Part shown: one piece after another, positions 15,199 to 64,000 of the stretch
How the letters are laid out: each line of letters starts with the position of its first letter
How positions within the stretch are numbered: position 1 is the stretch's first letter
Assembly: GCF_009730915.1 (NCBI RefSeq)
Contig: NC_052482.1
Span: 20,986,345 to 21,050,344, forward strand
Direction of reading: 5' to 3'
Length of the DNA stretch: 64,000 nucleotides
Source of the DNA: Dioscorea cayenensis subsp. rotundata
Taxonomy: Eukaryota > Streptophyta > Magnoliopsida > Dioscoreales > Dioscoreaceae
Notes under the pieces: model-generated
The model's input: only the letters and a program-made list of their open reading frames with translations
Databases searched by the model: none
Told to the model about the DNA's origin: nothing
Made by a program: the position numbers and the translations under genes

Positions 15199-15263
15199 TT
15201 ATTATATAGATGAAGAGAAAGGCTGTGATTGGTGGATGATGTCTTCGTGAGGATTGATGACGT
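15199..15263 (-). promoter_or_regulatory. H2B promoter elements
   Basis: Read on the minus strand, TATATAAT lies at 15208-15201, about 90 bases upstream of the ATG. CCAAT lies at 15232-15228. The hexamer ACGTCA at 15263-15258 is followed by TCAATCC, which resembles the ACGTCA hexamer elements of plant histone promoters. The role is inferred from position and motif. Confidence 0.55.
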
Positions 15264-15860
15264 GTCAGGAATATTGACCGTTGGATTGAGACTGGGTGGA
15301 TTTAGACGGTCCGGATCTGATGTATTAATGGGTGGAAGTTTACAATTGGTATTCTGAGTAAAATTTGGAGTTTAAAAAATTAAGATTTTAAAAATTTGGG
15401 TCCAATTAGAAATCTTACAAAATAATTCATATGCATAAGGCCGCAAATATATATATATATATGAAAATCTATAAAGAGATATACAGTAGCCGTTAAATTA
15501 TTATCTAACGGTGATGATTCATTCATAAACTATGTTAAACAGTATCAAACAATGTAATATAGTAACATATAATAATTATGAATAATAAATTTTACCATCA
15601 ATGATTGTAAAAAGATATCTCTGATAAATAGTAATCTCTGTACGTACGTAGATAACTTAAATTATATATTTTAAGTAAATTAAAATATTAAAAATTATTA
15701 AAGAATGAAGTGAGGCTATCTATTCGGGTTGAACCTAAATTGAGTAAAAAAAAATTAAGCTTTGTTTGATTTTAATTTCAAAAACTTAAGTTTGGTAAAT
15801 TTTAGTTTGAAATTAAAACTAAATATTTTATTCTAAAAAACTCAAATTCAAATAAATTTA

Positions 15861-29751: not shown

Positions 29752-30751
29752 NNNNNNNNNNNNNNNNNNNNNNNNNNNNNNNNNNNNNNNNNNNNNNNNN
29801 NNNNNNNNNNNNNNNNNNNNNNNNNNNNNNNNNNNNNNNNNNNNNNNNNNNNNNNNNNNNNNNNNNNNNNNNNNNNNNNNNNNNNNNNNNNNNNNNNNNN
29901 NNNNNNNNNNNNNNNNNNNNNNNNNNNNNNNNNNNNNNNNNNNNNNNNNNNNNNNNNNNNNNNNNNNNNNNNNNNNNNNNNNNNNNNNNNNNNNNNNNNN
30001 NNNNNNNNNNNNNNNNNNNNNNNNNNNNNNNNNNNNNNNNNNNNNNNNNNNNNNNNNNNNNNNNNNNNNNNNNNNNNNNNNNNNNNNNNNNNNNNNNNNN
30101 NNNNNNNNNNNNNNNNNNNNNNNNNNNNNNNNNNNNNNNNNNNNNNNNNNNNNNNNNNNNNNNNNNNNNNNNNNNNNNNNNNNNNNNNNNNNNNNNNNNN
30201 NNNNNNNNNNNNNNNNNNNNNNNNNNNNNNNNNNNNNNNNNNNNNNNNNNNNNNNNNNNNNNNNNNNNNNNNNNNNNNNNNNNNNNNNNNNNNNNNNNNN
30301 NNNNNNNNNNNNNNNNNNNNNNNNNNNNNNNNNNNNNNNNNNNNNNNNNNNNNNNNNNNNNNNNNNNNNNNNNNNNNNNNNNNNNNNNNNNNNNNNNNNN
30401 NNNNNNNNNNNNNNNNNNNNNNNNNNNNNNNNNNNNNNNNNNNNNNNNNNNNNNNNNNNNNNNNNNNNNNNNNNNNNNNNNNNNNNNNNNNNNNNNNNNN
30501 NNNNNNNNNNNNNNNNNNNNNNNNNNNNNNNNNNNNNNNNNNNNNNNNNNNNNNNNNNNNNNNNNNNNNNNNNNNNNNNNNNNNNNNNNNNNNNNNNNNN
30601 NNNNNNNNNNNNNNNNNNNNNNNNNNNNNNNNNNNNNNNNNNNNNNNNNNNNNNNNNNNNNNNNNNNNNNNNNNNNNNNNNNNNNNNNNNNNNNNNNNNN
30701 NNNNNNNNNNNNNNNNNNNNNNNNNNNNNNNNNNNNNNNNNNNNNNNNNNN
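29752..30751. other. Assembly gap, 1000 N
   Basis: Exactly 1000 undetermined bases, a conventional gap size. It separates the LRR pseudogene from the Mutator-like transposase, so the true spacing and any missing sequence are unknown. Frames spanning it are artefacts. Confidence 0.99.
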
Positions 30752-32131: not shown

Positions 32132-33880
32132 GAAATTGTTGGAATTGTTTAAAGAACTTACAACCTAAAACAAAGTGGGAAAACATTTTAGCACAAAACA
32201 AAAATCTTATTTTGATACCACATTGTTGTAAACTTAATAGGTACTAGGAATCAGCCCTTTAATTCTTCAAAGGTATCATTTAGCATGTAAAAGAAACCTC
32301 ATCCAAGGTACTACATCCAGTAAGGACCAATAATTCAAGAAACAAAGATGTTATTATCTTTCAGCCATTCAGCTATTGATTAAGTGAATGCATATAAAAT
32401 ACCAAGAACAAAGAAAACATAGAAATTATTTAGACAGTAAATAGATCAAACACCAAAAGTTGACAGTTGAAGCAATATAAAAGAACCTTCTGAATAATAA
32501 CCAGCAAATATACATATCACCCAAAATTAGGATTTATGTTAAAAGCATACATAGTACACAATAAACAAGATACATAGTACACATGTTTGGTACAAGATTC
32601 ACATGAGACACTCACCGCTCTCAGAATTGTTCTTCTATCTCTCTCCCTAGCATTTTTAATGGCCTACAAACATTTCCACAAGTCACTCAACTACCAAACA
32701 CCATTAAAAATTAAAGAAATAGGCACCATGGTATCACACATTCAAAGAGAAAGAACAAAAAGAAGGAATAGCAACCTCCTCTAGCTCCTTCTCGCTCTTG
32801 CGATCCACCTCAAAATATCCCTACACAAACCATCCAAACTTGCACCTTTGAAAATACTTTTACCCAATAATATATAAAATAAATCCCCAAAGAAACTCAA
32901 ATAACACCCGCCAACAATCATGCTCCACTACGCACAGAGACTTGGCACACACATTAACATTCTTAGAGCATCCACGCATCATTAGAAACCAAACTATCAA
33001 AAATAATTAACACACAAAAACATGCAAACTAAAAATTTAAAACACACACAACACAGACACCCAAAAGAAAAAAGGAAAAGAAAAGGAAATACCATAAAGG
33101 CTTGTACTTACCACACTTGGCACACCAAACACATCAAAAAGAGCACCAGAAACATAACAAAAATCTAAAAATTAAGAAAAATAAGAAAAGATGAACTTGG
33201 GCTTCCAATGGATCTGATCCTTGCAACGGGGCAAACTCCAGTGATCTCCGAGTATGGCCGAAGCCGACCCCCAACTTCCGGTGAATTTCCAATAAATCAC
33301 TCAACAAATCAGCAACAATAAACAGCAGGGGATAAAGTTAATTAACTTCTGTTAATGGAATCTAACATCAGGGACATATCCGTAAGTATCTATATTTTTC
33401 AGGGGTATATATGCAATTATATTTTTTTCTGAAGGTAAATATGCAATTATAGAATTTTTGAGATGTTTATAACCAATTTTCCCATTTCTATACTTGAACA
33501 AGATAGGATCAAGCGCTAGTTCCAGTTTAACCCACACTAATTGGTCGATTGGGTCTAATTTAACAAACATTGATAAAAATTATTTTTATTATAAGTAAAA
33601 GTTTGTGAAAATTCATATTGAGAAAGATTTGAGACAAAGATATAAATATATTGACAAAATAATAAATACCCAATTAAAAAAAAATCCAGCCCCAGCTGCT
33701 TGGGTGACCACACCACCATTTTCCTAATAGTTTGCATATCGCTAGAGTTCATATATCTTATTTAGTTATTTTTTAACTCATCATAATTTTTAAATATTTG
33801 AATTATCTCTAAAAAATTTGAAAGAAAGTCTTCTAATTAAAAATATAAATTTTCAAAGAATTTATTGTCAAACCTATAAT
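32132..33880. other. Intergenic DNA beyond the MULE
   Basis: Mostly A-rich non-coding sequence. Part may be MULE terminal sequence, but I could not pair the ends. No gene was recognised. Confidence 0.4.
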
Positions 33881-34560
33881 ATCCACTTCACCTCGTGTTT
33901 CAAAGGAAGTTACTGACGTTGTCTGATGACAGTACGTGATGCACGACCAACACATAAACCAAGTGCCTTGCAATCAAAATAAAGATTCTCCATTCCTCCA
34001 TGATGCATGCAATCAAGAAAGAGCTAATTATATATTTTTCGTTTCATCATGAAAATTAATGTACTTAAATAAGTGCACCGGATGTTTAAATAGTTTAAAT
34101 AAAGACAAATATATAAAAAATTTTAAGATTATTACTATTAACCCACTTCAACTATATAAACCCCTTATATACGTTTAGTTTTTATCCCACATATAACTAT
34201 TATCCTGCTCCATCATTTTCAACAAATTAAATTACTCCAAAATCTTGATCTTCTATGAAACTAAAACTGCCTCCGTGATTGAGTACAATATGACAGATCT
34301 CTCTCACCTCACCTTTGGTACGCCACTGCTAACAAGAGTCATCACTGAGACAACTTTTGTTGTGTAAGGCTCGCATACCTTGTTCACCATCAAAGTCGGA
34401 GCATTCTCAACTTCTACAGACTTGACTGCAGCACTCCATTTTGTAGCTCGTCATGCAAACGTGCAAAGAACTACTTGTAATGCTAGCTGTTTCGGATATC
34501 TCAAGGATAAACACAGCAAGGATGCCGGTGCATTGTTCCGAAGCTTAGATTAATTACTAA
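33881..34560 (-). pseudogene. Ferredoxin-NADP reductase-like remnant (copy C)
   Basis: Two pieces match exons 3 and 4 of the intact copy at 46.6-54.0 kb. 34560-34250 corresponds to the exon with MSARQA and VSVETLVGPKG; it retains ICHIVLNHGGSFSFIE in one frame. 34015-33890 corresponds to the exon with LSLCVRRAEL and retains GLCVGRAS. Frameshifts and stops interrupt both and the later exons are missing. It is the most diverged of the three copies. Confidence 0.75.
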
Positions 34561-34607
34561 AAATTTGCATAACAAAAATATGAATGAGCTACAAATTAAT
34601 TACTGCA

Positions 34608-34833: not shown

Positions 34834-35107
34834 TTAAAAAATTAGCATATTTATATTAAGTATGTGAAAAAATATCATGGAACATAAAAATTTCTAAAAA
34901 ATGAATATTATGGGACCGAGGAAATAGCTAGTATTTTAAATAGAGAAAAGTAATAATAAATCTTATTACTTAAACACAACTAATTTGGTGCTCACACTTC
35001 ACTGCATATTCCCTAAAAGTTTTTTTTTAATTATACTTTTTAATCCGACTGACATTAATTTATAATTAAATTTAAAAACAAAAAGTTAAAAAAAATAAAT
35101 ATTTTAA

Positions 35108-35600
35108 GTGGATATCATGTCATTTTTCATTTTGAGTATCTGACTTCAATTTATATCATTTTGATTATTCAATTTTAATTTGTATTCATTTGGAGATTAC
35201 CTATAAAATTTCAGAGAGAATTTGATAACATATATGCCGGATTCGACATGTTAACACCAGTTCACCCCTTCATCTATATATACGGAATGACACATCATTA
35301 AAGAGAGCCATGTGACCACTCTTATTGACACGACATATGCCACATCAGCCAAGTGAACTTGTTAATAAGTATAGCCATGTGGCTCTCTTTGATGATGTGG
35401 CATATCCACATATGCAAATGATATGCAAACTGGTGTTGAAATGATAAATCCGACATAAATGTGATCAAATTCTCTCAAGAATCTCATGGGTACCCTCCCA
35501 GTGAACACAAATTAAAGCTGAGTGACTAAAATGATATAAATTAAAGTTTGATTCTCCAAATAAAAAATAACTATAGTATGATAGCCATCCAAAAAATTTG
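35108..35600. repeat. Foldback element with long imperfect inverted arms
   Basis: The left arm (about 35110-35315) and the complement of the right arm (about 35600-35370) share TCAATTTATATCATTTT, AATTTGTATTCA, GAGAGAATTTGAT, AACACCAGTT and CATCATTAAAGAGAGCCA. The same structure is present in the duplicated copy at about 56300-56800. No coding frame; the family is unknown. Confidence 0.6.
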
Positions 35601-35782
35601 CCCGACTAAAAGGCATAGTAGTACGTGGGGTTTATATACAAATATATAAATCACCCATGTTTGAGTGTTTTTTCATGTATGGCCTAACAAAATGTATAAT
35701 TTACTCATAGATTTGTTTAGAACTTCTCCAAATATAATATCAAGTACGTTTTTCTGAAACAAAAAATTGTATAATTCTCTAC

Positions 35783-36035
35783 ACATTTCCTCTACTTTTT
35801 CAAATTTAACCTTTTAGTCCCTTTACTTTTAACTGTAACATTTCGGTCTCTCAAAAATTTTAATTTAGCCATGTCAGTTCCCCTAAACCCCAAACTCTAA
35901 CCCTAAACCATCAAAAAGGGTGTCTGACATTGCTCATTTAAACATAGTAGAGGGACTAAAAAGTTGCAATTTAAAGTGAGGGACTTAAAGGATAAGTTTG
36001 AAAAAATATAGAGACTATTTATAAAATTTTTTAAA
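35783..36035. mobile_element. MITE-like inverted repeat
   Basis: The left side CTCTACTTTTTCAAATTTAACCTTTTAGTCCCT pairs with the right side (complement: CTCTATATTTTTTCAAACTTATCCTTTAAGTCCCT). The two arms carry AGTCCCTTTACTTTTAA and its complement. It is duplicated at about 56974-57219. The target duplication was not determined. Confidence 0.5.
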
Positions 36036-36077
36036 ATAATTTAAATGTAAAATAATAAAAAATATCTTATATATATA

Positions 36078-36957
36078 ATTTTTTGCTTGATGGGGCCACT
36101 TTCGTGTCTAATCCTGATATAGTTGGTTACCGTGATAGTTGTTTATGCAACTCGAGGATGGCTAGGGACAAGGAGTGGTGGACTCTCATGCCAAATGGAA
36201 ATTTCACGGTGAAATCATTTTATACTATCCTGAATGATGGGGGCATGCATTGTCCGATTGCTAGATGGTTTTGATGCAGCAATTGTCTGAAGAAAGTCAA
36301 CATTTTCAATTGGTTGGTTTGGCAAAACAAGATCTTTTCTCTTGAAAATTTGGAGAAGCGCAGATGTAACAATCTCCCGACAGCTACTTGTGTGATGTGT
36401 CATTATGAGATTGAGTCTATAGATCATCTTTTTCTCCATTGTCATTTTACCTAAGAGATTTGGGAGTACTTTGTAGATTTATTTCAGCTGCATGTTCCAG
36501 CTGAGTCCATGTGTCAAATTTGGGGGATGTGGAGTTCCCGACTTAGGCCTGCTTTTAGAAATATGGGTGTTTGGATTGTGAAAGCTCTTGTCTGGAATAT
36601 TTGGCTAGCTAGAAATGATCGTATTTTTAATGCTAATGCTTCGCCCACTATTGCTATTATTGTGGAAAGTGAACAAATGATTTTATCTTGGTTTTCAGCA
36701 GGTACTGATGGATCCAGAGAGAAGTTTGAAGGCTCTATCAATTCTATTAGACGCAATCTGGAGTTTCTGGGACAACGTTCGAAGAAGCGAAGAGACGATG
36801 TGATGGCCGAGGAGGCGCATATCCAGATCCCAGGTTAGACCTTGTTGTCTTCTTCTGGTGTTAGGTGCTTGGTGATGGTCATACCTAGTTTTTCTTTTCT
36901 GTTCGGTTTGTGACTTTGGGCTTTTGTACCACATATAGTGGTATGTTCTTGTATATT
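36078..36957 (+). mobile_element. 5'-truncated LINE, zf-RVT region and C terminus of ORF2
   Basis: Starting near DGATFVSNPDIVGY the frame runs through MPNGNFTVKSFYTIL, a stop, WLVWQNKIFSLENLEKRR, CVMCHYEIESIDHLFLHC (the zf-RVT Cys and His pattern), a stop, then IWEYFVDLFQLHVP, VWNIWLARNDRIFNAN and RRNLEFLGQRSK, ending at 36836-36838. The two internal stops show it is dead. Its 3' untranslated tail is split by the CACTA element and resumes at 45804-45880, ending in an A-rich AAATAAA tail. Confidence 0.85.
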
Positions 36958-44656: not shown

Positions 44657-44659
44657 ATA

Positions 44660-45760
44660 ATATATTATATATATAATATAATTATATATAATAATACAAG
44701 TATATATATAATTATCTTAAATCAAGAGTTTAAGTGTTTAACAATGTATTAAAAAATTATTGTATTTGTATTTTTTGCACTGTATTTGATACGGCATTAA
44801 TCAATTTAGTACTTTTAGCATTATACTTAGTACGATATTAATAATTTACTTATATTTATATTTTTTTGAGTGCAGGATTTGATCACGGTGTTAATATATT
44901 ATTATATTTATATTTTTTTATACCATATTTAGACGAGTATTAATATATTATTATATTTATATTTTTTTAGCGTAGTATTTGGAACCCAGTATTAATACAT
45001 AAATATATTCATATTTTTTAGTAGCAGTATTTAGATGCAGTATTAATATATTATTATATTTATATTTTTAGCACCGTGTTGTACGAGTATTAATATATTA
45101 TTATATTTATACTTTGGCACTGTATTAATATATAAATATATTTGTATTTTTGGCATGGTATTTGGCACGATATTAATATATTGTTATATTTATATTTTTT
45201 AGCACTTTGTATTTGACATTTGTATTAATAATTTTCTATATTTATATTTTTTTACGCGATATTTGAGTACGGTGTTAATATATTATTATATTTATATTTT
45301 TGGCACCGTATTTGGCTACATATTAGTATATTATTATATTTTTATATTATTGTAGCGGTATTTGGTACGAGTCTTAGTATATTATTATATTTTTATATTG
45401 GTGGCTACGAGTATTTGCACTGGAAGTAATATAATATAATATTTATATTTTGGTATGGTATTTGACATGGTATCAATATACTATTATATTTGTATTTTGG
45501 CACGACATTTGGCACAGTATTAATATATTATTATAGTTGAGTTTTTGGCACAGTATTTGGCACGGTAATAATATAATTATATTTTTTTAAAAATATGTTT
45601 GGAACTGCATTTGGCACTGTCATTTAAAATTATTAAATTTATATATTTGGCACGGTATTTGGCACGGAATTAAAAAATATTTTTAAAAAAATTCATATAT
45701 TTGACACTATTTCTTAGTTCCGTATCAAATGTTGTAACAAATTTGTCACGATTTTGTTTT
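44660..45760. repeat. Right subterminal repeat array of the CACTA element
   Basis: About 15 imperfect units of roughly 60-75 bases combine a GGCAC-GTATTTGGCAC-type word with TATTAATATATTATTATATTTATATTTTT. The motif matches the left subterminal region in the opposite orientation. Confidence 0.8.
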
Positions 45761-46598: not shown

Positions 46599-49500
46599 CT
46601 AGTAAACTTCAACACGCCAGTGATTAGTTTTCTGCAGTTGGTCCAGCATCTTTGGCCAATCCACACCTCTTTCTTGAGCAATCTTAACGAATGTCTCCTT
46701 AATTCCCGGCAGCATGGTACTTGATCCAGCGATATATATATATGCACCAGCTTTCAAAAGTGTGAAAATTTCATTACCACTTTCATAGATGCTATCCTCC
46801 ACAGAGTTATTCAAGGCCCTCTGATATCTGCATTAATATTTTAATCATCATTAATATTTGCAAATGATTAATTGATATTATTTATAGGTATACTTTAACA
46901 AATTTATGTGAATTTAAAAATTAATTAAAATTATTTGATAATATTAAATTTATAAAAAAAATATTGTATAAATTTTTTTAAAAAAATTATTCTTATTAGA
47001 AATTCATCAATGTTCTATTGATTTTTCTCTAATTTAATTATTATCATTTTTTATTATTTCTCTCAAAATAGTACTTTATGTTTTCTAAAAAAAATATATT
47101 TTCACATTAGATACGAACATTTAATTTGAAAAAAAAACATTTAATATTTTATAAATTTTTTTTATGAACACGTAAAAAAAGAAAAAAAAACATCTTCTAA
47201 AAGAATAAAAAATATACATAGGGCGTAAAGAAATATTAGATAGTCTTTTAAGTACCTGAAGTGATTAATATTGTCATTTTGAATTTGAGTAAATTCGTTG
47301 TCGTAAAGAAGACTATTATAGTTGTCAGCCCCAGAGATCAACCAGACATGTTTATTGAATGTAAGAATTTTTTGTTGTTGTTGGGTGTCGAATAAATATT
47401 GATGATGTAGGAACAATCGTTGGATGTTGCTGCGAAAAGGAGCAATACCAGTTGTTGTTGCAACCATAATATGTTTGACTTCCCGTGTTGGCCATATCGG
47501 CATGGGTTCCAATGTTGATATGGGTTCTATTTCTGGTTTTGGTGGGCTTAGCGGTATGAGTTCCGGTGGGAATACCATTTTACCTCCTGCAGGACCTGTA
47601 ATAAAAGCACATGACAAAACCAATTTTATTACTGATAATTAAAAGTATTGTGAAAATTTAAATTAAGAAAGATTTGAGAAAAACACAATTGAAAAAAACA
47701 CACCCAATTTTAACAAAGTTCCCGCACCATGCACCACTTTGACAATATTGTTGGAAATAATCAAGACGTGGGTTGTTTGGATCTAACGCATAGATGTTTG
47801 AAGTTTGTGTTAGTTTATCTTGTAGATTTATGTGGATAAGATTAATATTATTTAATTATGTTGATTTGATTAGATAAGAAGAGTAGTTATTTTTTTGAAT
47901 TTATCTTGATAAGGTAAACGTCTCATAGCTTATCTAGATGGTTTTGTTAGTCTATATATACAGCTTGTAATCTAGCTTTTGATTAGATGAAATAAAATCA
48001 GTGAGATTAAAGCTGTGCATCTCTCTCGTTCTTCTCTTTTCTTCTTCTTGTTTTCTCATTTCAAGTAGGCATCTTCTACACGTGGTATCAGAGCCAGTGC
48101 ATGCCAAGTACCTGAGGTTCACACCAATGGCGATCACCACCCAACAGGCAGCGAAAGAAAGCGGCGGTGTGTCGTTTCACTGCCCAATGTTGACGTCATC
48201 CAACTATGACACATGGGCGATCAAGATGGAGGCGATCATGGATGCTCAAGGGGTTTGGGAATCCATCGAACCGGTGGCCGGAACGACCGTGGATCCAAAG
48301 AAGGACAAGATGGCGCGGGTATACCTGTTCCAGTCCATTCCCGAGGACGTGCTTCTGCAGGTTGCAATGAAGAAGACAGCCAAGGAGGTTTGGGACAGCC
48401 TCAAGACGAGGTACCTTGGAGCAGATAGAGTGAAGAAGGCCCGTTTGCAAACCCTGAAGAGCGAGTTTGATAACTTGCGCATGAAAGAAGACGAATCAAT
48501 TGATGAATTCGCCGGTAAGTTGAGCGGGATGGCGACCCACTACAGCAACCTTGGCTCCACCTTGGAGAACGCTGCCCTCGTCAGAAAGTTGCTTGATTCT
48601 GTCCCTGACAAGTTTTTCCCGGTGATTGCTGGAATTGAGCAATTTTATGACATTGACACTATGCCTTTTGAGGAGGCAATCGGTCGTTTGAAGGCATATG
48701 ATGAACGTGTTCGTCTTCGCAGCGGCCATGGCAACAACAATGGGCAGCTCTTGTTAACCTATGCTGAGTGGCAGGCACGACAAAAATACAGTGGCGGAGA
48801 GGTGTCATCCGCTACCAAGGGGCGAGGAGTAAATGCCAACAGCAATGATGGTCGCGGCCGTGGACGAGGCCATGGACGTGGTCGTGGTTTTGGAACGGGT
48901 CGTGATAAGAGTCACATAAAATGTTTTAATTGTGATCTTTATGGCCATTTTGCTTTGGAATGCAGGAACAAGAAACGAGAGGAGGAGACACACCTTGCAC
49001 AAGCACAGGAGGAGGATCCAGCACTATTATTAGAGGATCCAGCACTACTGTTAGCAATGAACACGGAGTTAGGCAAATTGGTGTTACTGAATGAAGACAA
49101 GGTGGAACCGCAACTACGAGCTGACGGTGAGGCATATGTAAGCTCTGACATGTGGTACTTCGACAACGGTGCAAGCAATCACATGTCAGGCCAGCAAAAC
49201 AAGTTTCATGATCTGGATGACTCTATCCAGGGTCATGTGAGGTTCGGTGACGGCTCTACTGTGCAAATCAAAGGAAGAGGAACAGTGTTGTTCCAGTTTG
49301 AAGGTGGAGAGCAAAGGCTTCTCACAGAGGTGTATTACATTCCCGCACTGTCCAGTAACATCATAAGCATCGGCCAACTTACTGAGGGAGGTAGCAAAAT
49401 TGTTATTGCTAGTGCCTTCCTGCAATTGTATGATTCACAAGGAAGACTTCTCATGAAGGTCAGACGCTCATCCAATCATCTTTACAAAGTGTTGATGAAG

Positions 49501-52500
49501 ACGTGTGAGCCGGTGTGCTTGTATGCAAACATATCTAACCCAGCTTGGTTATGGCATGCAAGATTGGGACACGTAAATTTTCAAGCTCTCAAGATGATGG
49601 TCAACAGAGGAATGGTATATGGGTTGCCTAAGATTAGTCACCCGATGCAAGTATGTGCAGGTTGCACAATTGCCAAGCAACCACGTCTTCCATTCCCCAC
49701 TGTGGCAACATACCGAGCTAAGGAGCGACTCGAGCTAGTGCATGCAGACTTATGTGGTCCCATTACTCCACAAACGGCGGCCGGGAACAAATACTTCTTA
49801 CTCTTTGTTGATGACTACAGTCGGATGATGTGGGTGTATATGCTCAAGTCAAAGAGTGATACATTAGAACAATTCAAGAAGTACAAGGTACTTGTGGAGA
49901 ATGAGTCTGGTCATAAGATGAAGATACTCAAAACCGATCGTGGGGGTGAGTTCTTATCCAAAATGTTCAACACATTTTGTGAGAGCGAAGGCATTCAACG
50001 GTATTTCACCGCACCTTATACACCACAACAAAACGGTGTTGTAGAGAGGAGAAATAGAACCGTGGTGGACATGGCGAGAAGTTTGCTGAAAAGCACACAG
50101 ATGCCTTCAAGATTTTGGGGCGAAGCAGTCCGGCACACGGTCTACATCTTAAATCGTGTGACTACAAAAGCATTGCATAATTCAACCCCTCATGAAGCGT
50201 GGACTGGAAGAAAACCACGCTTGGACCACCTGAGGGTGTTTGGTTGCATGGCTTACATGAAGATACCAACTGCGCACCTTAAGAAGCTTGACGATCGTAG
50301 TATTCCTGTGGTCTATCTCTGCGTTGAAGCTGGGTGTAAAGTGCATAGACTCTTCGATCCACATCACAACAAGGTTCATATTAGCCGTGATGTGATCTTT
50401 GAGGAGAGCAAAAGTTGGATGTGGAGTGAGGCTGTAACAGATGACCAAGACATATGGGCCACATTCTCCATTGAGGAACCAGACATTGAAGAAAACAATG
50501 AAGCAAGAACATCGAACTCACCAGGGATGCCAAGGGATGTGACTACGACATCAGATGTAGCTCCAGACACTAGAAGCTCACCCTCAGCCACACCAAAACC
50601 AACAGATGTAGCACCAACATTACCAGCCACTATGGGAAGTTTGAGCCCTCCATATTCATCCAAATATGATGATAAACCAGGTAAGTTTCGATCTCTTGCA
50701 GAAATTTATGAAGAAACAGAGGAATTACATCCATTGTCAGAGGAACTATTACAGGCTGAAATGCATGAACCTGTAACCTTCTTTGAAGCAGTCAAAGAGA
50801 AGCAATGGGTTGAAGCAATGGACCAAGAGATTGCATCAATTGAAAAGAATAAGACATGGTCACTAACTGACTTGCCAGCTGGACATAAACCTATAGGTTT
50901 GAAATGGGTTTACAAACTAAAAAAGGATTCAGAAGGGAATGTGGTTAAACACAAAGCCAGACTTGTTGCAAAGGGATATGTACAGCGACAAGGAATTGAC
51001 TACGAGGAAGTCTTCTCTCCAGTGGCAAGAATCGAAACAATCAGGTTATTACTTGCACTAGCAGCTCAATGCAAATGGCAAGTGCATCACATGGATGTCA
51101 AAACGGCGTTCTTGAATGGAGAGCTACTGGAAGAAGTCTATGTTACTCAGCCAGAAGGATATGTAGTGAAGCAACAAGAGCACAAGGTGTACTGCATTGT
51201 TCAAGGCACTATACGGATTACGCCAAGCACCCCGAGCCCGGAATCTTCGGGTTGGATAGAAAAATTGAAGAGCTTTTTGTTTTATTAAATGCCCCCCAAG
51301 AGCATGTCTGTTTATGTGAGAACTAAACAATCTAATATTTTTGATTATTGGAGTTTATGTTGATGATCTTATTATAACTCGAAGAAGTTATAGACATCCA
51401 AGAATTCAAGCATCGGATGATGAATGAATTTGAGATGTCCCGATCTCGGACTTCTTTCCTATTATCTGGGCATTGAAGTGGAGCAAAGGGAAGAGAGAAT
51501 TTCCCTCAAACAATCGGGATACGCTAGAAGGATCCTACAACAATTCGGTATGGAAGATTGTAACCCATGTAAGTGCTCCATGGAACCAAAACTACAACTT
51601 GGAAAAAGATCCCCGAGGGAGAGTTTGTTGATCCAACTGAATATCGGCGTGCCATTGGAAACCTAATGTACATGCTGCACACTCGACCTGATCTTGCATA
51701 TTCAGTTGGGATGGTCAGTAGATACATGGAGAAGCCTACAATGCTACACCAAAAGGCTGTAAAGCAAATCTTAAGGTATATTAAAGGTACAATTGAATTT
51801 GGTTTGGAATACACAAGTGGAGGTGATGGCGAAATTATTGGGTTTTGTGATAGTAGTTTGGCCAGTGATATTGATGACAGAAGAAGCACTAGTGGGATGG
51901 TGTTTTATGTCAATAAAAGTGTGATTTCATGGAGTTCACAGAAACAAAAGAGCGTCGCATTATCGTCATGTGAAGCTGAATTCATGGCAGCAACGGCAGC
52001 CGCTTGTCAGGCGATATGGTTGAGGGGATTGATGAGTGAAGTGACAGGGCGTTCTCCAGAATTAGTCAGGCTATATGTTGATAACAAATCAACGATAGCA
52101 CTAATGAAGAATCCAGTGTTCCATGGGAGAAGTAAGCACATCAATACCCGGTTCCATTTTATTCGTGAATGCATTGAAAGAGGGGAGATTATTGTTGAGC
52201 ATGTAAGTGGAGAAGAACAACGTGCAGACATTCTCACTAAGTCACTTACAAAGGTGAAGTTCTCAGAGATGCGCCTCTTAATTGGAGTCAAGGACTTAAC
52301 ACAACCAAGTCTAGATTAGGGGGAGAGTTTGTTGGAAATAATCAAGACTTGGGTTGTTTGGATCTAACGCATAGATGTTTGAAGTTTGTGTTAGTTTATC
52401 TTGTAGATTTATGTGGATAAGATTAATATTATTTAATTATGTTGATTTGATTAGATAAGAAGAGTAGTTATTTTTTTGAATTTATCTTGATAAGATAAAC

Positions 52501-54049
52501 GTCTCATAGCTTATCTAGATGGTTTTGTTAGTCTATATATACAGCTTGTAATCTAGCTTTTGATTAGATGAAATAAAATCAGTGAGATTAAAGCTGTGCA
52601 TCTCTCTCGTCCTTCTCTTTTCTTCTTCTTGTTTTCTCATTTCAAGTAGGCATCTTCTACAAATATATAGTCCACACAAATTGAATTCTACTTAAGCTCA
52701 AAATGAATAGAGTTTATTGTTCAAGTTAATAATATTTAGATTGTCTTAATTTTTTTTTTTATAAATGCAACAAGTGTTGTTAGTAAAAGAAACGTTCACA
52801 CGGCCAAAATTCAATCATCTAGTTAATGTGCCCTCACCCAAAAATATATGGTGCAAATTGCAAGCATAAATCCACATTTGAAGAACTGTTATCATTGTTA
52901 TCATTGTTGTGGTTAGTGAAATTCAAATTTGAGAAAATTAAATGTCTTGCACCCACTTTTCCCAGTGTGGCTGGGCAATAAATGTCTTGCACCCACTTTT
53001 CACAGTGAGGCTGGGCAATAAACCCTTTTGCTCCCTACAAATTTAAAACAAAGTCTTGTAAATAAATATAAAATTTCAAAGTACGTATTTTCAAACCTGA
53101 AATTTCAACCACGTCTCCAGCTTTAACGTTACAGAGGTAGTTACTAACACTGTCTGACGACAGTTCTGCACGACGAACACATAGACTGAGTGTATTGCCA
53201 TCACAAGAATCTCCACGTCTCCATGATGCAATCGAGAAATAGCGTTTGTTCTGCAGGAATGATTGATGTATAATTAGTAGAGATCGAAAACACTAAAAAT
53301 TAAATCACAAACGTGAAAATGCACGTACTTAAACAAACTCACTGATTGAAAACATACTGCAAGATATTGGCCTTCCATGAAACTAAAGCAACCACAGTGA
53401 TCAAGCACAATATGGCAGACCTCTCCGAGGCCGCCTTTGGGGCCAACAAGAGTCTCCACTGAGACAACTGTTGTTTTGTAAGTCTTGTCAGCACTCGAAG
53501 GTATTTCTCTAGTCTCCCAAGCTTCTAAAGGGACGACTGCAGCATTCAGTTTTGTAGCTTGGCGTGCAGACATGCCGAGAACCTTGTGGTTATACTTGGA
53601 ATGCTGTTTCTCATTTCTTAAAGATAAACTGGGTAGGGATGTCGGCACCTTGTTTTCGAAGCTCAGATTACTGGTTATCTGCATAACAAGAATATGAATG
53701 AGCTACAACTGCATTAATAATCTTGCCTTCCGATCGAGTTCATAATACACTTACACAAGCAGAAAAAAGTTACAACAAAGTATAAGAAACAGACAGAATT
53801 ATTTATACAAGGGCTTAATTAAGATGTTCACCAGTGAGGCAGAGTGATTAAACCCTAAACTCTTCCCAGGGAGCATCTGCGCATGCATGACACTGCAAAG
53901 ATTAGCCCTGCAATCAATTAACACAACCAAAACCTTAGCTTGACACGGATATATATATATATATATATATTAATATTTTTAACCAACCACACAATTATCT
54001 GAATAATATATACAAAGGATGTTAGTGAAAATAGATACTTGAGAGCCAT
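46599..54049 (-). CDS. Ferredoxin-NADP reductase-like protein, six exons, intact frame but altered active site (copy A)
   Basis: Exons on the minus strand: 54049-54039, 53907-53832, 53678-53358, 53250-53097, 47595-47256 and 46827-46599. All junctions are GT-AG and in phase, giving 376 residues, the usual length of a root-type plastid FNR precursor. N terminus MALKANLCSVMHAQ with a Ser-rich transit-like stretch, then MSARQATKLNAAVVPLEAWE, TTVVSVETLVGPKGG, EVCHIVLDH and EGQYLAV. FAD-binding motif RYFSIAS replaces RLYSIAS. The NADP-binding half has MVATTTGIAPFRS where GTGVAPFR is usual, SLLYDNEF, and the C terminus HWRVEVY with the final Tyr. About 24 Pro-rich residues are inserted before HIMVA. 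The Ser-Arg and Lys-Tyr motif that holds the NADP 2'-phosphate is missing, and IYIAGSS replaces IYFCGLK, losing the catalytic Cys. A Copia element fills most of the fourth intron (47596-53096). Catalysis on NADP is doubtful. Confidence 0.8.
48127..51288 (+). CDS. Copia gag-pol polyprotein (element 1), frameshifted in the reverse transcriptase
   Basis: The start MAITTQQAAKESGG after the primer site was chosen; the open frame reaches back into the LTR but that is not coding. Gag (UBN2 type) covers about residues 20-240 and the zinc knuckle CFNCDLYGHFALEC is near 265. The protease motif near 345 reads DNGAS, where DTGA or DSGA is expected. Integrase follows with HADLCGP, KTDRGGEF and VERRNR, so the D, D and E residues are present. 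The reverse transcriptase starts near EKQWVEAMDQEI, keeps HHMDVKTAFLNGEL, and breaks after HKVY near 51195; the frame then ends at 51288. The element therefore cannot make a full polyprotein. Confidence 0.9.
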   Translation: MAITTQQAAKESGGVSFHCPMLTSSNYDTWAIKMEAIMDAQGVWESIEPVAGTTVDPKKDKMARVYLFQSIPEDVLLQVAMKKTAKEVWDSLKTRYLGADRVKKARLQTLKSEFDNLRMKEDESIDEFAGKLSGMATHYSNLGSTLENAALVRKLLDSVPDKFFPVIAGIEQFYDIDTMPFEEAIGRLKAYDERVRLRSGHGNNNGQLLLTYAEWQARQKYSGGEVSSATKGRGVNANSNDGRGRGRGHGRGRGFGTGRDKSHIKCFNCDLYGHFALECRNKKREEETHLAQAQEEDPALLLEDPALLLAMNTELGKLVLLNEDKVEPQLRADGEAYVSSDMWYFDNGASNHMSGQQNKFHDLDDSIQGHVRFGDGSTVQIKGRGTVLFQFEGGEQRLLTEVYYIPALSSNIISIGQLTEGGSKIVIASAFLQLYDSQGRLLMKVRRSSNHLYKVLMKTCEPVCLYANISNPAWLWHARLGHVNFQALKMMVNRGMVYGLPKISHPMQVCAGCTIAKQPRLPFPTVATYRAKERLELVHADLCGPITPQTAAGNKYFLLFVDDYSRMMWVYMLKSKSDTLEQFKKYKVLVENESGHKMKILKTDRGGEFLSKMFNTFCESEGIQRYFTAPYTPQQNGVVERRNRTVVDMARSLLKSTQMPSRFWGEAVRHTVYILNRVTTKALHNSTPHEAWTGRKPRLDHLRVFGCMAYMKIPTAHLKKLDDRSIPVVYLCVEAGCKVHRLFDPHHNKVHISRDVIFEESKSWMWSEAVTDDQDIWATFSIEEPDIEENNEARTSNSPGMPRDVTTTSDVAPDTRSSPSATPKPTDVAPTLPATMGSLSPPYSSKYDDKPGKFRSLAEIYEETEELHPLSEELLQAEMHEPVTFFEAVKEKQWVEAMDQEIASIEKNKTWSLTDLPAGHKPIGLKWVYKLKKDSEGNVVKHKARLVAKGYVQRQGIDYEEVFSPVARIETIRLLLALAAQCKWQVHHMDVKTAFLNGELLEEVYVTQPEGYVVKQQEHKVYCIVQGTIRITPSTPSPESSGWIEKLKSFLFY
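51200..52319 (+). pseudogene. Remainder of Copia 1: reverse transcriptase end and RNase H
   Basis: In other frames LYGLRQAPRA (about 51210), VYVDDLI (about 51353), then LSYYLGIEVEQ (51460) and, after another shift near 51600, GNLMYMLHTRPDLAYSVG and RNase H with SVALSSCEAEFMAA and DILTKSLT, ending at 52319. At least three frame changes separate these conserved blocks, so the loss of coding is not a single error. Confidence 0.85.
52667..53096 (-). other. Fourth-intron sequence of the reductase gene next to Copia 1
   Basis: Non-coding, matching 58466-58854 in the other copy. It contains two near-identical direct repeats of AATGTCTTGCACCCACTTTTC-CAGTG (about 52941 and 52981), while the other copy has one. 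No other feature. Confidence 0.6.
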
Positions 54050-56246: not shown

Positions 56247-57940
56247 CATTAATTTATAATTAAATTTAAAAACAAAAGGTTAAAAAAAGTAAATATTTTG
56301 AGTGGATATCATGTCATTTTTTATTTTAAGTATCGAACTTCAATTTATATCATTTTAATCATTCAACTTTTAATTTGTATTCATTTGAAGATTACCTAGA
56401 GAATTTTGGAGAGAAATTGATGACATGTATGCCAAATTTGGCACGTTAACACGAGTTCACCCCTCCATCTGCATATACGGAATGACACATCATTAAAGAG
56501 AGCCATATGATCACTCTTATTTATACGACATATGCCACATCAGCCAAGTGAATTGGTTAATAAGTATAGCCATATGGCTCTCTTTGATGATGTGACATAT
56601 CCACATATGCAAATAATATGCAAACTGGTGCTGAAATGACAAATCAGACATATATGTGATCAAATTCTCCCAAGAATCTCTTGGATACCCTCCCAGTGAA
56701 CACAAATTAAAGCTGGGTGACTAAAATGATAAAAATTAAAGTTTGAATCTCAAAATAAAAAATAACTATAGTATGATAGCTACCCAAAAAATTTACCTGA
56801 CTAAAAAGCATAGTAGTATGTGGGATTTATATACAAATATATAAATCTCCCATGTTTGATTGTTTTTTCATGTATGGCCTCACAAAATGTATAATTTACT
56901 CATAGATTTGTTTAGAACTTCTCCAAATAAAATACCAAGTAGGTTTTTCTGCAACAAAAAATAATGGTATAATTCTCTAAACAGTTCCTCTACTTTTTCA
57001 AATTTAACCTTTTAGTCCCTTTATTTTTAACTGTAACATTTTGGTCTCTCAACAATTTTAATTTAGCCACGTCAGTTCTCCTAAACCCTAAACTCTAACT
57101 CTAAACCATCAAAAATGGGGACTAACATTGCTCATTTAAACATATTAGAGGGACTAAATAGTTGCAATTTAAAGTGAGGGACTAAAAAGATAAGTTTGAA
57201 TAAGTATAGAAACTATTTAGAAAATTATTAAAAAAAATTAAATGTAAAATAATAAAAGATATCTTATGTACATAATTTTTTGCTTGTTGGGGCCCCTTTC
57301 ATGTCTAATCCTGATATAGTTGGTTACCATGATAGTTTTTTATGCAACTCGAGGATGGCTAGGGACAAGAAGTGGTGGACTCTCATGCCAAATGGAAATT
57401 TCACGGTGAAATCATTTTATACTTTCTTCAGTGATGGGGACATGCGTTGTCAGATTGCTAGATGGTTCTTGTGCGAGAATTTTCCGAAGAAAGTCAACAT
57501 TTTCAATTAGTTGGCCTAGCAAAACAAGATCCTGTCTCTTGAAAATTTGGAGAAGCGCAGATGTAACAGGCTCCCGACAGCTGCTTGTGTAATGTGTCAT
57601 TCCGAGATTGAGTCTGTAGATCATCTTTTTCTCCATTGTCGTTTTACCAAAGAGATTTGGGAGTACTTTGTAGATTTATTTCAGCTGCATGTTCCGGCCG
57701 AGTCCATGTGTCAAATTTGGGGGATGTGGAGTTCCCGACTTAGGCCTGCTTTTAGAAATATGGGTGTTTGGATTGTGAAAGCTTTATGTGGAATATTTGG
57801 CTAGCTAGAAATGATCACATTTTTTATGCGAATGTCTCGCCTACTATTGTTATTATTGTGAAAAGAGAACAAATGATTTTATCTTGGTTTTCAGCATTTA
57901 CCGATGGATCCAGAGAGCAGTTTGAAGGCTCTATCAATTC
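56247..57940. repeat. Second copy of the 35053-36744 segment
   Basis: The two segments are collinear over about 1.69 kb, from CATTAATTTATAATTAAATT to CTCTATCAATTC. They include the foldback (about 56300-56800), the MITE-like repeat (about 56974-57219) and the start of the LINE. At 57940 the segment joins directly to the sequence corresponding to 47224, skipping about 10.5 kb of the other copy. Confidence 0.9.
57275..57940 (+). mobile_element. LINE fragment, second copy
   Basis: Same LINE portion as at 36078: SNPDIVGYHDSFLCNSR, MPNGNFTVKSFYTFF, CVMCHSEIESVDHLFLHC and IWEYFVDLFQLHVP. It keeps reading frame where the first copy has a stop before IWEYF, but has its own stops (LA after FN, and after KALCGIFG). 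It is cut at 57940 by the deletion junction. Confidence 0.85.
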
Positions 57941-58875
57941 GTAAAGAAATATTAGATAGTCTTTTAAGTACCTGAAGTGATTAATGTTGTCATTTTGAAT
58001 TTGAGTAAATTCGTTGTCGTAAAGAAGACTCAGTTATAGTTGTCACCCCGTAGATCAACCGTATATGTTCATTGAATCTAAGAATTTTTTGTTGTTGTTG
58101 GGTGTCGAGTAAATATTGATGATGTACGAACAATCATTGGATGTTGCTGCGAAAAGGAGCAATACCAGTTGTTGTTGCAACCATGATATGTTTGACTTCC
58201 CATGTTGGCCATATCGACATGGGTTCCAATGTTGATATGGGTTCTATTTCTGGTTTTTGTGGGCTTAGCGGTATGAGTTCCGCTGGGAATACCATTTTAC
58301 CTCCCGCAGGACCTGTAATAAAAGCGCATGACAAAAACCAATTTTATTAGTGATAATTAAAAGTATTGTGAAAATTTAAACTAAGAAAGATTTGAGACAA
58401 ACACAATTGAAAAACACACCCAATTTTAACAAAGTTCCCACACCATGCACCACTTTGACAATATATAGTCCACACAAATTGAATTCTACTCAAGCTCAAA
58501 ATGAATAGAGTTTATTGTTCAAGTTAATAATATTTAGATTGTCTTAATTTTTTTTTTTTATAAATGCGGCAAGTGTTGTTAGTAAAAGAAACGTTCACAT
58601 GGCCAAAAATCAATCATCTAGTCAATGTGCCCTCACCTAAAAATATATGGTGCAAATTGCAAGCATAAATCCACATTTGAAGAACTGTTATCATTGTTAT
58701 CATTGTTGTGGTTAGTGGATTCAAATTTGAGAAAATTAAATGTCTTTCACCCACTTTTCACAGTGAGGCTGGGCAATAAACCCTTTTGCACCCTACAAAT
58801 TTAAAACAAAGTCTTGTAAATAAATATAAAATTTCAAAGTACGTATTTTCAAACCTGAAATTTCAATCACGTCTC

Positions 58876-61800
58876 TGATAGAATTAATCTTGTTAGTGCA
58901 TATATGACCCTATGTTATTTATATTTTATATTTAGATATTATTGCATTTATGCATTTATGTTTGCAGTTATAACCCTTGGTATTTCAAAAATTGCATTTG
59001 CATTTAGAATTATGTTTAGATAAGCTTCTTAATTTGAATTTGTTTAGTTTCTTGGTGGATAAGAAATGTAGTTTGAATTCAGTTATTATTATCAATATAA
59101 AAGATAGAAAGGTGGGGAGTTTTGGTTGACCGCGTCAAAATTATCTCATCTTCTTTGAGTGTTCTTTGTTTGTTTTTCTCTGATTTTCCTAACATTTGGT
59201 ACCAGAGCAAGGTTTGGAGTAGATACCAAAGATCCTGTCAGGTTCATCATCAAAGAGTGAAACAACCGTCGGTACGACAGCATTGAAGGCTCCAACAAGA
59301 GACGGGATGGTGACCCTCCAGTATCTGTTGTTCACGAAGAGCAATTACTCGGATGAAGGTGTACATGCGTGCACAAGGCGTGTGGGATGCTATTGAGCCT
59401 ATTGACCCGAAGGAAGAGATAGAGACGCGGAAGGATCAGATGGCCTTTACTACCATCTATCAGGGTATTAGCGAGGAGACGCTCCTGGTGTTGGCTAAGA
59501 AGGAGACGGCCAAGGAGGCATGGGAGATGTTGAAGACAATGCACATGGGCACCGAGCGTGTCAAGGAGGCAAAGATCCAGACTCTGAGAAGCGAGTTTGA
59601 AGGTCTAAGCATGCGTGAAGCGGAGATGGTTGATGACTTTGCCACAAAGTTGACCACAATAGTCAGCAAAATTCGTGTATTGGGCGACAAGGTGGAGGAG
59701 GCTTACGTCGTCAAGAAGCTCCTTCATGTTGTTCCTTCCAAGTTTATTTAGATTGCATCGACGATTGAGCAGTTCGGCAATCTCCAAACAATGACCTTGG
59801 AGAAAGTCATCGGGTCGCTTAAAGTCCATGAAGAGTGATTGCGGGGTTACGAGGATGAGAAAGAAGAATACATCCTATTAACAAAGAACGAATGGAATGC
59901 AAGAGAAGAAGGTGAAGGTACATCGAACTCGTTGAGAGGACGAGGAGGAAGCAACTGGCGTGGTCGTGGCTATGGCTGTGGTCGTGGATGTGGGCATAAT
60001 GATGGAGGCCACAGGACTGACAATAATCATCAAGAGAAGAAGTTCGATAAGTCAAAGATGAAGTGTTACAATTGTAACCATTTTGGACACTTTGCCTATG
60101 AATGTCATTCTAAGAAGAAGAATGAGAGGGCCCTTGTTGCAGATAAGCAAGAAGATGATGAACCAGCATTGCTTATGGTCGAGGTATATGAGCTCTTGCA
60201 ATCTGTTAAAGATTCAACTAAAGAAGTAAAGCTTAATGAACAGAAGATGAAGCTAACTTTGGGGAGTGATGAGAAGTATGAGAGTGATGTATGGTATTTG
60301 GACACCGGGGCGAGCAATCACATGGTCGGGTGTATAGATAAATTCAACGAGCTTGATGGAACTGTGAAAGGCACGGTGAAGTTTGGAGATGGAATGATTG
60401 TTGACATATGTGGCCGTGGATCGGTTCTGTTCAAATGCCAAAATGGTGAGCACAGGGTATTGACTAATGTGTACTACATTCCAAGGCTTAAGAGTAATAT
60501 TGTGAGCTTGGGACAACTGGATAAGCACGGCTGCAAAACAATCATGGAAAATGGATACATGTGTATTTTCGATATGTAAAGAAAGTTACTGGTGAAAATA
60601 AGGAGGTCAAGAAATAGGTTGTACATGCTTAACCTCAACCTAGCCCAGCCGGTGTGCATGTTGGCAAGCTACAAAGAAGATGCATGGGTCTGGCATGCAC
60701 GATATGAGCACCTAAACTTCCAAGTATTGAGAAGTGTGGCACACAAAAAGATGGTGGAAGGTCTGCCAGTTCTGGAATATGTAGACCAACTTTGTGATGG
60801 TTGCATGGTGGGTAAACAACGGCGTACTCCGTTCCCTCATGACTCAAATTATCGTGCAGAGAAACCACTGCAACTTGTTCATGGTGATTTGTGTGGACCA
60901 ATTACACCAACAACCCCTGGAGGTAATAAATTCTTTTTATTGGTTGTTGATGATTTCAGAAGATACATGTGGATAGTGATGCTCAAGACTAAAGATGAAG
61001 CTTTGAGTGATTTTAAGAAAATCAAAGCGAGTGCTGAGATGGAGGTAGGTCACAAGATGAAGGCCTTGCGAACTAATAGAGGAGGAGAGTTTATGTCCAA
61101 GGAGTTCAGTCAATATTGCAAAGACTTTGGGGTAAAACGGTTTCTCACTGCACCATATTCTCCACAGCAAAATGGTGTTGTTGAGCGGAGAAACCAAACC
61201 ATTATGGCAATAGCAAGGAGTTTGCTGAAGAGAAAGAATGTGCCGGGAACATTCTGGGGAGAAGTAGTGGCGACAGCGGTGTACCTTCTTAATCGTGCCG
61301 CAACACAGAGTAGTCGGGAAGACACCATATGAAGCTTGGTATCAGAAGAAACCAAAGGTGCAACATTTACGTACCTTTGGTTGTGTGGCACACGTTAAAA
61401 CAGTGAACACACACCTCAAGAAGTTAGAAGATCAGAGTACTCCCATGGTATTTCTTGGCTATGAACATGGGTCCAAGGCCTATCGAGTTTATGATCCTAA
61501 GACAAGAAAGTTGCACATCAGCCGAGATGTGTTTTTCAATGAGGAGAAGCAATGGGATTGGGAGTCATATCTTGGGCATGATACCACTTTATCTAATCAA
61601 GGTAACACATTTACAGTAATGCATGAAACTGACCATGTTGTAGGAGAAGATGAGAGCTGTGGACTAGATATTCCAGTGTCACCCACAATGGGCGCAACAC
61701 CCACCTCGGCCATAATGATCTCATCGAGTGCCTCTTCATCATCTTCTATGGAGGGGCCAAGTCGTTTTTGGTCTCTCCAGGAGGTGTATGATGCCACATC

Positions 61801-63725
61801 CGAGGTGGAGCCAGAATATGGTGAACTATGCTTGCTGGATGAGGAAGAGCCAATGAGCTTTGAAGAAGCCCAAAAAGAAGAAAGTTGGAGATGTGCAATG
61901 CAAGAGGAGTTGAAAGCTATTGAAGATAATGACACATGGGAGCTAGTAAACTTGCCAAGTGGACACAAACCCATTGGATTAAAGTTGGTGTACAAAGTGA
62001 AAAAGGATTCACAAGATGTAATAGTGAAACATAAAGCTCGTCTTGTAGCAAAGGAGTATGTGCAAAAACAGGGAGTGGACTTTGATGAAGTTTTTGCACC
62101 TGTTACGAGGCTTGAGACAGTGAGATTGCTCATTGCCATGGCTGCTCAAGATGGTTGGGAGGTGCATCACATGGATGTTAAATCGGCATTCCTCAATAGG
62201 GAGCTTAGCGAGGAAGTTTACGTGTTGCAACCGCCTGGTTTTGTTAAGAGGAACCATGAGTATAAGGTGCTGAAATTAAGGAAGGCACTTTATGGACTTC
62301 GACAGGCGCCTAGGGCATGGAATTCCAAGCTTGATCAGAGTCTTTTGTCACTTGGGTTTGAAAGATGTCCACTTGAGCATGCCTTGTATAAAAGAAGCCT
62401 AGGTGAGTCAAGTTTGTTGGTTGGAGTGTATGTCGATGACTTGATCATTACAGGTTCCAGTACTGCTGACATCACAAAATTCAAGACACAGATAAAGAAA
62501 TTATTCAATATGAGTAACCTAGATCTATTGAGTAACTATTTAGGGATAGAAGTTCAACAAACATCTCAAGGAATAACACTGTGTCAATCAGCCTATGCAG
62601 CCAAGATACTAGAAAAGTGTGGCATGAGTGGGTGTAACCCAACCCAAACTCCCATGGAATCTAGGTTGAAGCTGAGCAAACTGAGTACAAATCCACCAGT
62701 TGATGCTACTCTATATAGGAGCATTGTTGGAAGTTTGAGGTATCTTGTTAATACAAGGCCGGACATAGCATATGCGGTCGGGATTGTAAGTCGATTCATG
62801 GAAGGTCCTACCACTCAACATATGGCCGCTATGAAGCATATACTCAGGTATGTGAGTGGTATATTGAATTTTGGATGTCACTATACAAAGATATAGGATG
62901 AGAAACCGTAGCTAGTTGGGTATAGTGATAGTGACTTAGCTAGCGATGTTGATCATCGCAAGAGTACTACTAAAGTTGTCTACTTTCTTGGTCCAAACCT
63001 AATCACTTGGATGTCACAGAAGCAGAAAGTAGTGGCACTATCATCTTGCGAGGCGGAGTATATTGCTGCAACAACGGCTGCATGTCAAGGTATATGGCTA
63101 AATCGTTTATTAGTTGATTTGATGAAGCAAGAGTTGAGCTCGGTGGTTCTTAAGGTGGACAACAAATCTGCAATTTCCCTTTGCAAGAATCCTGTCAATC
63201 ATGATAGGAGCAAGCACATTGACACATGATACCATTTCATCCGGGAATATATCGAGAGTAGCAAGATAGCAGTAAAGTATGTGAATTCAGATAACCAGCT
63301 CACTGACATACTGACCAAGTCGCTTGGGAGTGTCAAATTCTTGGAGATACGCCAGAAGATTGGGTTGCGAGATGTGAAGAAAAATCAACAAGATTAAGGG
63401 AGTGAATGATAGAATTAATCTTGTTAGTGCATATATGACCCTATGTTCTTTATATTTTATATTTAGATATTATTGCATTTATGCATTTATGTTTGCAGTT
63501 ATAACCCTAGGTATTTCAAAAATTACATTTTCATTTAGAATTATGTTTAGATAAACTTCTTAGTTTGAATTTGTTTTGTTTCTTGGTGGAGAAGACATGT
63601 AGTTTGAATTCAGTTATTATTATCAATATAAAAGATAGAAAGGTGGGGAATTCTGGTTGACCCCGTCAAAATTATCTCATCTTCTTTGAGTGTTCTTTGT
63701 GTGTTTTTCTCTGATTTTCCTAACA
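58876..63725 (+). mobile_element. Copia retrotransposon 2, complete structure but degenerate, in a reductase exon
   Basis: LTRs at 58876-59194 and 63407-63725, each 319 bp, TGATAG to TAACA, differ at about 13 bases (near 4 percent), so it is older than Copia 1. Target duplication GTCTC is at 58871-58875 and 63726-63730; copy A has the empty site at 53113-53117 (CACGTCTCCAGC). Primer site TGGTACCAGAGC is at 59197-59208. It interrupts the coding exon of copy B. Confidence 0.95.
59307..63397 (+). pseudogene. Copia gag-pol of element 2, with many stops and shifts
   Basis: Order is normal: gag (MKVYMRAQGVWDAIEP), zinc knuckle CYNCNHFGHFAYEC near 60063, protease DTGASN near 60301, integrase 60670-61330, reverse transcriptase 61880-62480 with HHMDVKSAFLN and VYVDDLIITG, and RNase H with VVALSSCEAEYIAA near 63029. 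Breaks include a small gag deletion near 59350, stops at 59749, 59836 and 60577, a shift near 61310, and stops at 62894 and 63227. The integrase motif reads RTNRGGEF, so the second catalytic Asp is Asn. It cannot be autonomous. Confidence 0.9.
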
Positions 63726-64000
63726 GTCTCCAGCTTTAATGTTACAGCGGTAGTTACTAACACTATCTAACGATAGTTCTGCACGACGAACGCATAGACT
63801 GAGTGTATTGCTATCACAAGAATCTCCACGTCTCCATGATGCAATCAAGAAATAGCGTTTGTTCTGCAGGAATGATTGATGTATAATTAGTAGAGAAAAC
63901 ACTAAAAATTAAATCACAAACGTGAAAATGCACGTACTTAAACAAACTCGCAGACTGAAAACATACTGCAAGATATTGGCCTTCCATGAAACTAAAGCAA

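Follow-up and report, generated by a model that had tools for sequence, protein, structure and literature searches.

A stretch of 64,000 nucleotides from Dioscorea cayenensis subsp. rotundata, here called the window (C12:20986345-21050344 of the 584 Mb assembly), carries an intact member of a gene family that derives from a root-type ferredoxin-NADP reductase (FNR). In this family the NADP phosphate site has been lost while the flavin-ring site has been kept, and the genes are still selected, such that they probably encode a flavin protein with a new job. The most likely reading of these data, to which we give an even chance, is an NADP-independent flavoprotein that would retain the flavin-ring pocket of root FNR.

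Structure of gene A

The intact member, gene A, lies on the minus strand between positions 54049 and 46599 of the window. Its six exons, bordered by GT/AG, yield a joined frame of 1131 nt with zero internal stops and no frame-breaking changes. The same six exons were returned by a spliced aligner:

54039-54049, minus strand: exon 1, 11 nt, start MALK.., phase 2 donor (exon 1 of the root FNR in the same genome is likewise 11 nt long)
53832-53907, minus strand: exon 2, N-terminal, transit-peptide-like
53343-53678, minus strand: exon 3, start of the FNR FAD domain, GTGAGT donor (end in the earlier model: 53358)
53097-53250, minus strand: exon 4, flavin site RYFS and SLCVRRA, without the YYDPETGKED loop, short start
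47256-47595, minus strand: exon 5, Pro-rich insert and TTGIAPFR
46599-46827, minus strand: exon 6 including the stop, without SREQ..KMY, Cys272 replaced by Ala, Glu312 and Tyr314 retained

The six in-phase exons of the earlier note are thus an unbroken frame, but its protein length of 376 residues needs correction. The most likely end of exon 3 is 53343, which would add the residues VCFQS and give a protein of 381 aa, since this donor place is common to gene A and five paralogs. In the latter (L019, L021, L024, L030 and L033) GTGAGC or GTAAGC is found at the matching exon end just past EGQYL.V, and a sixth stretch, L017, has GTGGGG where gene A has GTGAGT.

Among solved structures the top match of the gene A protein was maize root FNR (1jb9, E 1.9e-50), and a sequence comparison found its N terminus to be similar to that of the root FNR of the same genome. 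The Pfam domain NAD_binding_1 was still detected, with 32.8 bits. Three departures from FNR that had been described earlier were confirmed: the segment SREQ..KMY is missing, the Cys of CGLKGM is replaced by Ala (AGSSTM), and GTG of GTGVAPFR has become TTG (TTGIAPFR). An alternative exon that restores the missing motif, which the earlier note had considered, was not found in the window when searched with root FNR, nor did any of the 21 assessable exon-6 places of the family (22 fetched) contain the motif. In addition, 11 residues including the adenine-stacking Tyr120 are absent from gene A, an absence that is family-wide. Exon 4 begins some 10-15 residues shorter, which is a trait of the clade of gene A; the intact members C15_19.77, C11_9.2 and C11_17.1 have a different, acid-rich stretch at this place. 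The Pro-rich insert of about 24 residues is present as had been claimed, but it lies outside the shared loss and was found only in close copies (A, A', B, L012, L014 and L016). An origin of the insert as a tandem repeat was rejected, because no such repeat was found.

Surroundings of gene A in the window

Two further copies of the gene and two Copia retrotransposons were found in the window:

47749-52661, plus strand: Copia LTR retrotransposon of 4.9 kb in intron 4 of gene A, antisense to the gene, with target duplication and LTRs
57940-64000, minus strand: copy B, a broken paralog; its exon 5 has two indels and an in-frame stop, its exon 4 a Copia insertion
58876-63725, plus strand: the Copia inserted in exon 4 of copy B, with GTCTC as target duplication and LTRs of 95.9% identity (319 bp)
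33814-34602, minus strand: copy C, an old fossil that has several stops and in which exons 3 and 4 survive as remnants

The Copia element in intron 4 is flanked by a 5-bp target duplication (AATAT at 47744-47748 and 52662-52666), its LTRs differ at 3 of 333 aligned sites, and its frame contains gag, integrase and reverse transcriptase domains. The insertion site is unoccupied in copy B and in A', the twin of gene A on C11. Copy B is about 94-95% identical to gene A in exon-bearing stretches and less so in the remaining part of intron 4. Its 5' part extends past the end of the window (into L011), and no exon 6 of it was found within the window. An element of 1.7 kb that contains an internal inverted repeat occurs in two copies (91%) at 35053-36744 and 56247-57940; since its end is the point where the homology of B to A stops, it may have truncated copy B.

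Elsewhere in the window the plus strand carries about six similar genes or gene fragments in an array (1428-12000); its copies are roughly 76-92% identical, and both scanned members match Pfam DUF674. A core histone gene (14657-15301, minus strand, Pfam PF00125) is presumably H2B. A run of 1000 N (29752-30751) is either an assembly gap or a stretch that was withheld, and a diverged AT-rich repeat block with a recurring TTTGGCAC motif lies at 44658-45690.

A family of FNR-derived genes in the same genome

Searching the genome with the DNA of exon 5 gave 29 matches, located on C7, C9, C11, C12, C14, C15, C18 and C450. With maize root FNR as query 88 exon matches were obtained. Besides numerous FNR-like exons, these included one canonical root FNR (C12:18.84 Mb, 80-88% identity by exon) and a leaf FNR (C19:24.41 Mb). 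When exon 6 of a C15 member served as query, the 35 matches could be merged to about 28 places of the family, plus the root FNR and a weak place on C17; 22 of the 28 family places were fetched, of which 21 could be assessed for SREQ..KMY.

From 27 fetched stretches we modelled 26 or 27 family copies, with two copies in L025 and copy B split between L011 and the window. Eight of them are without frameshift or stop: A (window), A' (C11 20.32 Mb, L013), C12_21.09, C11_20.35 (L019), C14_11.3, C15_19.77, C11_9.2 and C11_17.1. The other 18 or 19 are broken or partial. For C11_17.1 (L033) a first model, in which exon 3 was wrongly split and the start of exon 4 misplaced, entered the tree, pairwise, codon-model and residue-table results given below; on re-examination its exons 1, 3 and 4 are open and exon 3 has the usual donor.

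Two of the intact members, C15_19.77 and C11_9.2, are without the transit-peptide exons (MA(L/F)KAEIK...); the places concerned are L021 3642-5368 and L030 5810-7412. This suggests a change of location inside the family, and a plastid location can therefore not hold family-wide.

The intron phases 2,0,0,1,2 were the same in gene A, in four other intact models and in the root FNR of the same genome, which also has six exons like gene A. In the tree the family formed one clade with 100% ultrafast bootstrap and a long stem, and it stood beside root FNR with leaf FNR assumed as outgroup. Gene structure and distances agree with this grouping: leaf FNR is farther from the family by distance and differs in exon structure. 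Tree, exon structure and distances together establish at the sequence level that the members have a common ancestry and descend from a root-type FNR. The canonical root FNR has a broken family member (L029, C12:18808500-18818499) at a distance of about 26 kb, possibly a trace of the founding tandem duplication. The stretch around A' (L013, C11:20320000-20329999) is near-identical to positions 33800-54600 of the window, with A' and a piece resembling fossil C and without the Copia element of intron 4; either the segment was duplicated recently, or a haplotype is misplaced.

Residues lost and kept

Functional residues were compared in a table of 15 family sequences, i.e. the 8 intact members and 7 with one or two breaks; the more broken or partial copies (L012, L014, L015, the 5' fragment in L019, L020, L022, L025, L026, L029, L036 and B) are omitted from it. 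In spinach numbering, Tyr120, Gly130, Val131, Cys132, Gly171, Ser234, Arg235, Lys244, Tyr246 and Cys272 were altered or absent in all 15 sequences, where the alignment of Ser234 and Arg235 depends on the gap setting and one Ser comes after two Asn. Equally without exception Ser96, Cys114, Val115, Ser133, Thr172, Gly173, Glu312 and Tyr314 were retained, and Tyr95 was replaced by Phe. At position 272, which we take to be the active-site Cys of FNR, Ala was found in 13 sequences and Ser in 2. In the FAD motifs RxYS and SLCV(K/R)(R/Q)(L/A), to which Arg93, Tyr95, Cys114, Val115 and Arg116 belong, Arg116 was present in 14 of the 15 copies; Arg93 was kept in 8, gene A among them, and lost in 7. A gap or Asp took the place of Lys85 in 15/15, the entry of C11_17.1 coming from the faulty model and the corrected stretch having no Lys before RVK. 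The positions 88 and 91 are non-Lys in the root FNR of the same genome too, and Ser234, Arg235, Lys244 and Tyr246 are present in both its root and its leaf FNR.

What these residues do in FNR has been described for known enzymes. In FNR structures Ser234, Arg235, Arg245 and Tyr247 (Leptospira numbering) contact the NADP adenosine ribose and phosphate, and Arg94, Val133, Cys134 and Ser135 contact the FAD pyrophosphate (PMC2148051). PMC9687028 describes Tyr95, Ser96, Glu312 and Tyr314 as surrounding the isoalloxazine and tuning its chemistry, and Lys85 is given as a ferredoxin-docking residue of leaf FNR in PMC10857128. The family has thus kept the ring site but lost the site for the adenosine of NADP, along with most of the site for the FAD tail. 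On the evidence of the alignment, both the losses and the retentions are common to the family. Since Val131 and Cys132 are changed in 15/15 and Arg93 is lost in 7/15, binding of FAD may be weak or absent.

Selection on the family and on gene A

Selection was evaluated on 277 codons of 10 sequences with a codon model that distinguishes three classes of branches. The dN/dS was 0.575 for the family and 0.07 for the canonical FNR branches, an about 8-fold gap. The family value was significantly different from 1 (LRT 36.6, p 1.4e-9), and little changed when A and A' or C11_17.1 were left out. The dN/dS test had been proposed in the earlier note, and its outcome supports a retained role. On the stem of the family the dN/dS was at the upper bound, yet positive selection was rejected since the value was not significantly above 1 (p 0.18). 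Maximum likelihood tests of nine pairs (A-A' and eight other family pairs) all gave a dN/dS below 1, ranging from 0.32 to 0.67 with p 0.048 or lower. These codon-based estimates demonstrate that purifying selection acts within the family.

Of the changes between gene A and A', 10 are synonymous and 8 nonsynonymous (ML dN/dS 0.32, p 0.02), and for the tip branch of gene A a dN/dS of 0.165 was obtained (p 0.006; 277 codons, insert of A excluded). Between the twins no indels were found in 1146 coding sites and 12 in 1343 intron sites. The frequency of substitutions was not significantly lower in exons (18/1146) than in introns (31/1343, p 0.20), and it was as low in the 3' flank (9/599) as in the exons. 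Between A and B exon divergence (27/532) was not below intron divergence (20/681, including two at a ragged end; Fisher p 0.07 in the wrong direction).

Polarising the A-A' differences with other copies placed 13 on A and 2 on A' and left 3 unassigned. Of the 13 changes on A, 11 were C-to-T or G-to-A. Such an excess is the pattern expected of methylated DNA. Only 4 of the 11 were nonsynonymous, counting the third-position change in codon 353 as silent, which is few for that spectrum (p 0.03). Gene A thus seems, from these substitution counts, to be under selection yet changing faster than its twin, since few of the 11 changes were nonsynonymous and the polarised changes were 13 versus 2.

Interpretation of the losses

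For the evolution of the family we propose the following scenario. A root-type FNR gene would have been duplicated at the DNA level and have given rise to a multigene family with gene A as an intact member. The NADP 2'-phosphate/adenosine site (Ser234, Arg235, Lys244, Tyr246) and Cys272 would have been lost before the sampled members diverged, and the Tyr120 loop, which stacks on the FAD adenine, together with most FAD pyrophosphate contacts in the same ancestral lineage. What appears to have been retained is the isoalloxazine pocket with Phe replacing Tyr95, Ser96, SLCVRR, Ser133, Glu312 and the C-terminal Tyr314. The protein, with its root-FNR-like N terminus, would be targeted to plastids, bind flavin and leave NADP(H) unused. 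It might exchange electrons with another redox partner or have acquired the role of a regulator. A more specific version is tentative: the FNR fold would have been turned into an NADP-free flavin enzyme by dismantling both dinucleotide-tail sites (FAD adenosine and NADP adenosine), and an isoalloxazine pocket with Ser-Glu-Tyr chemistry would be under selection. Such an enzyme may hold FMN or loose FAD and use a new electron partner or an organic substrate, its clusters having been amplified on several chromosomes. Several points weigh against a flavoprotein reading: the roughly 8-fold higher dN/dS of the family compared to canonical FNR, the 18 or 19 broken or partial copies out of 26 or 27, the loss of most FAD pyrophosphate contacts, the two intact members without transit-peptide exons, and exon substitutions that are no rarer than intron substitutions between A and B and not significantly rarer between A and A'.

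The earlier note had left the choice between a changed function and very recent decay. The window by itself, with the dead copies B and C and the A-B divergence, suggested a private recent decay of gene A, a view that was overturned by the family in the same genome. Changed function is favoured because the key losses are common to the 15 paralog sequences, the family dN/dS is below 1, and A and the intact A' differ by 10 synonymous against 8 nonsynonymous changes with all coding sites free of indels. Decay is not baseless, though. The family could be a graveyard of relaxed root-FNR duplicates with gene A as a young pseudogene that kept its frame by chance. The many broken copies, the dead B and C, the surplus of mostly C-to-T/G-to-A changes on A, the recent Copia element in intron 4 and the A-B comparison without exon constraint all fit this picture, which we nevertheless regard as unlikely: the family dN/dS is below 1 at p about 1e-9, the flavin-ring residues are retained in 15/15, the tip of A is poor in nonsynonymous changes given its mutation spectrum, and the 12 indels versus the twin are all in introns.

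A more plausible competitor of the flavoprotein reading, but still clearly a minority view, is a flavin-less pseudoenzyme, in which the fold serves without redox chemistry as scaffold, decoy or regulator, e.g. by binding ferredoxin, root FNR or an FNR tether. It would account for the relaxed dN/dS and for the loss of the pyridine-nucleotide site along with most FAD-tail contacts; Lys at position 85 is found in 0/15. A pure scaffold would, however, have no need of Ser96, Glu312 and Tyr314, which are kept in 15/15 and which tune the flavin chemistry in FNR (PMC9687028). Least probable appears a switch of the coenzyme from NADPH to NADH by loss of the 2'-phosphate pocket. The loss does centre on the 2'-phosphate contacts and NAD_binding_1 is still recognised by Pfam, but in 15/15 the Tyr246 hairpin, Cys272 and the Gly that opens GTG are gone too, such that little is left to hold any dinucleotide.

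Relation to known enzymes and meaning

With the root-type plastid FNR (the gene at C12:18.84 Mb; maize 1jb9) the family shares the six exons with identical phases, a related N terminus and an FNR-type sequence, including SLCVRRA, Ser96, Ser133, Glu312 and Tyr314. It differs from root-type FNR by the absence of the NADP 2'-phosphate segment, Cys272, the Tyr120 loop, GVC of GVCS, the Tyr95 hydroxyl and Lys85, and by the higher dN/dS. The leaf-type FNR (the gene at C19:24.41 Mb; spinach 1fnb) belongs to the same protein family and has the same flavin-ring residues, but it retains all listed NADP residues, has a different exon structure and is more distant. The name FNR-like has likewise been used in plants for FNRL (AT1G15140), which PMC11500984 describes as mostly present in one copy in dicots and as clearly separate from leaf and root FNR. 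By this description FNRL is set apart from the present family, which groups with root FNR. Plant pseudoenzymes that arose from active enzymes (e.g. PMC12727527) follow the same idea of a protein retained without the parent activity; they belong to another enzyme family and have no functional link to the FNR-derived genes. Among the matches listed for open-licence PMC text no title or abstract start describes such an FNR-derived family. In GTDB genomes 2 Prochlorococcus FNR loci were obtained, one of which was used as PDB query. Related plants may carry the family as well, perhaps under a plain root FNR label.

In textbooks FNR is an enzyme defined by its NADP site. Judged by sequence, the family described here is FNR by descent and not by this defining site, and an automatic label as ferredoxin-NADP reductase would be misleading for such genes. 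With one canonical root FNR and its eight intact offshoots a single genome provides a clean test set. A large, still selected family without the NADP site but with the flavin-ring residues would constitute a natural experiment on the FNR fold free of NADP(H).
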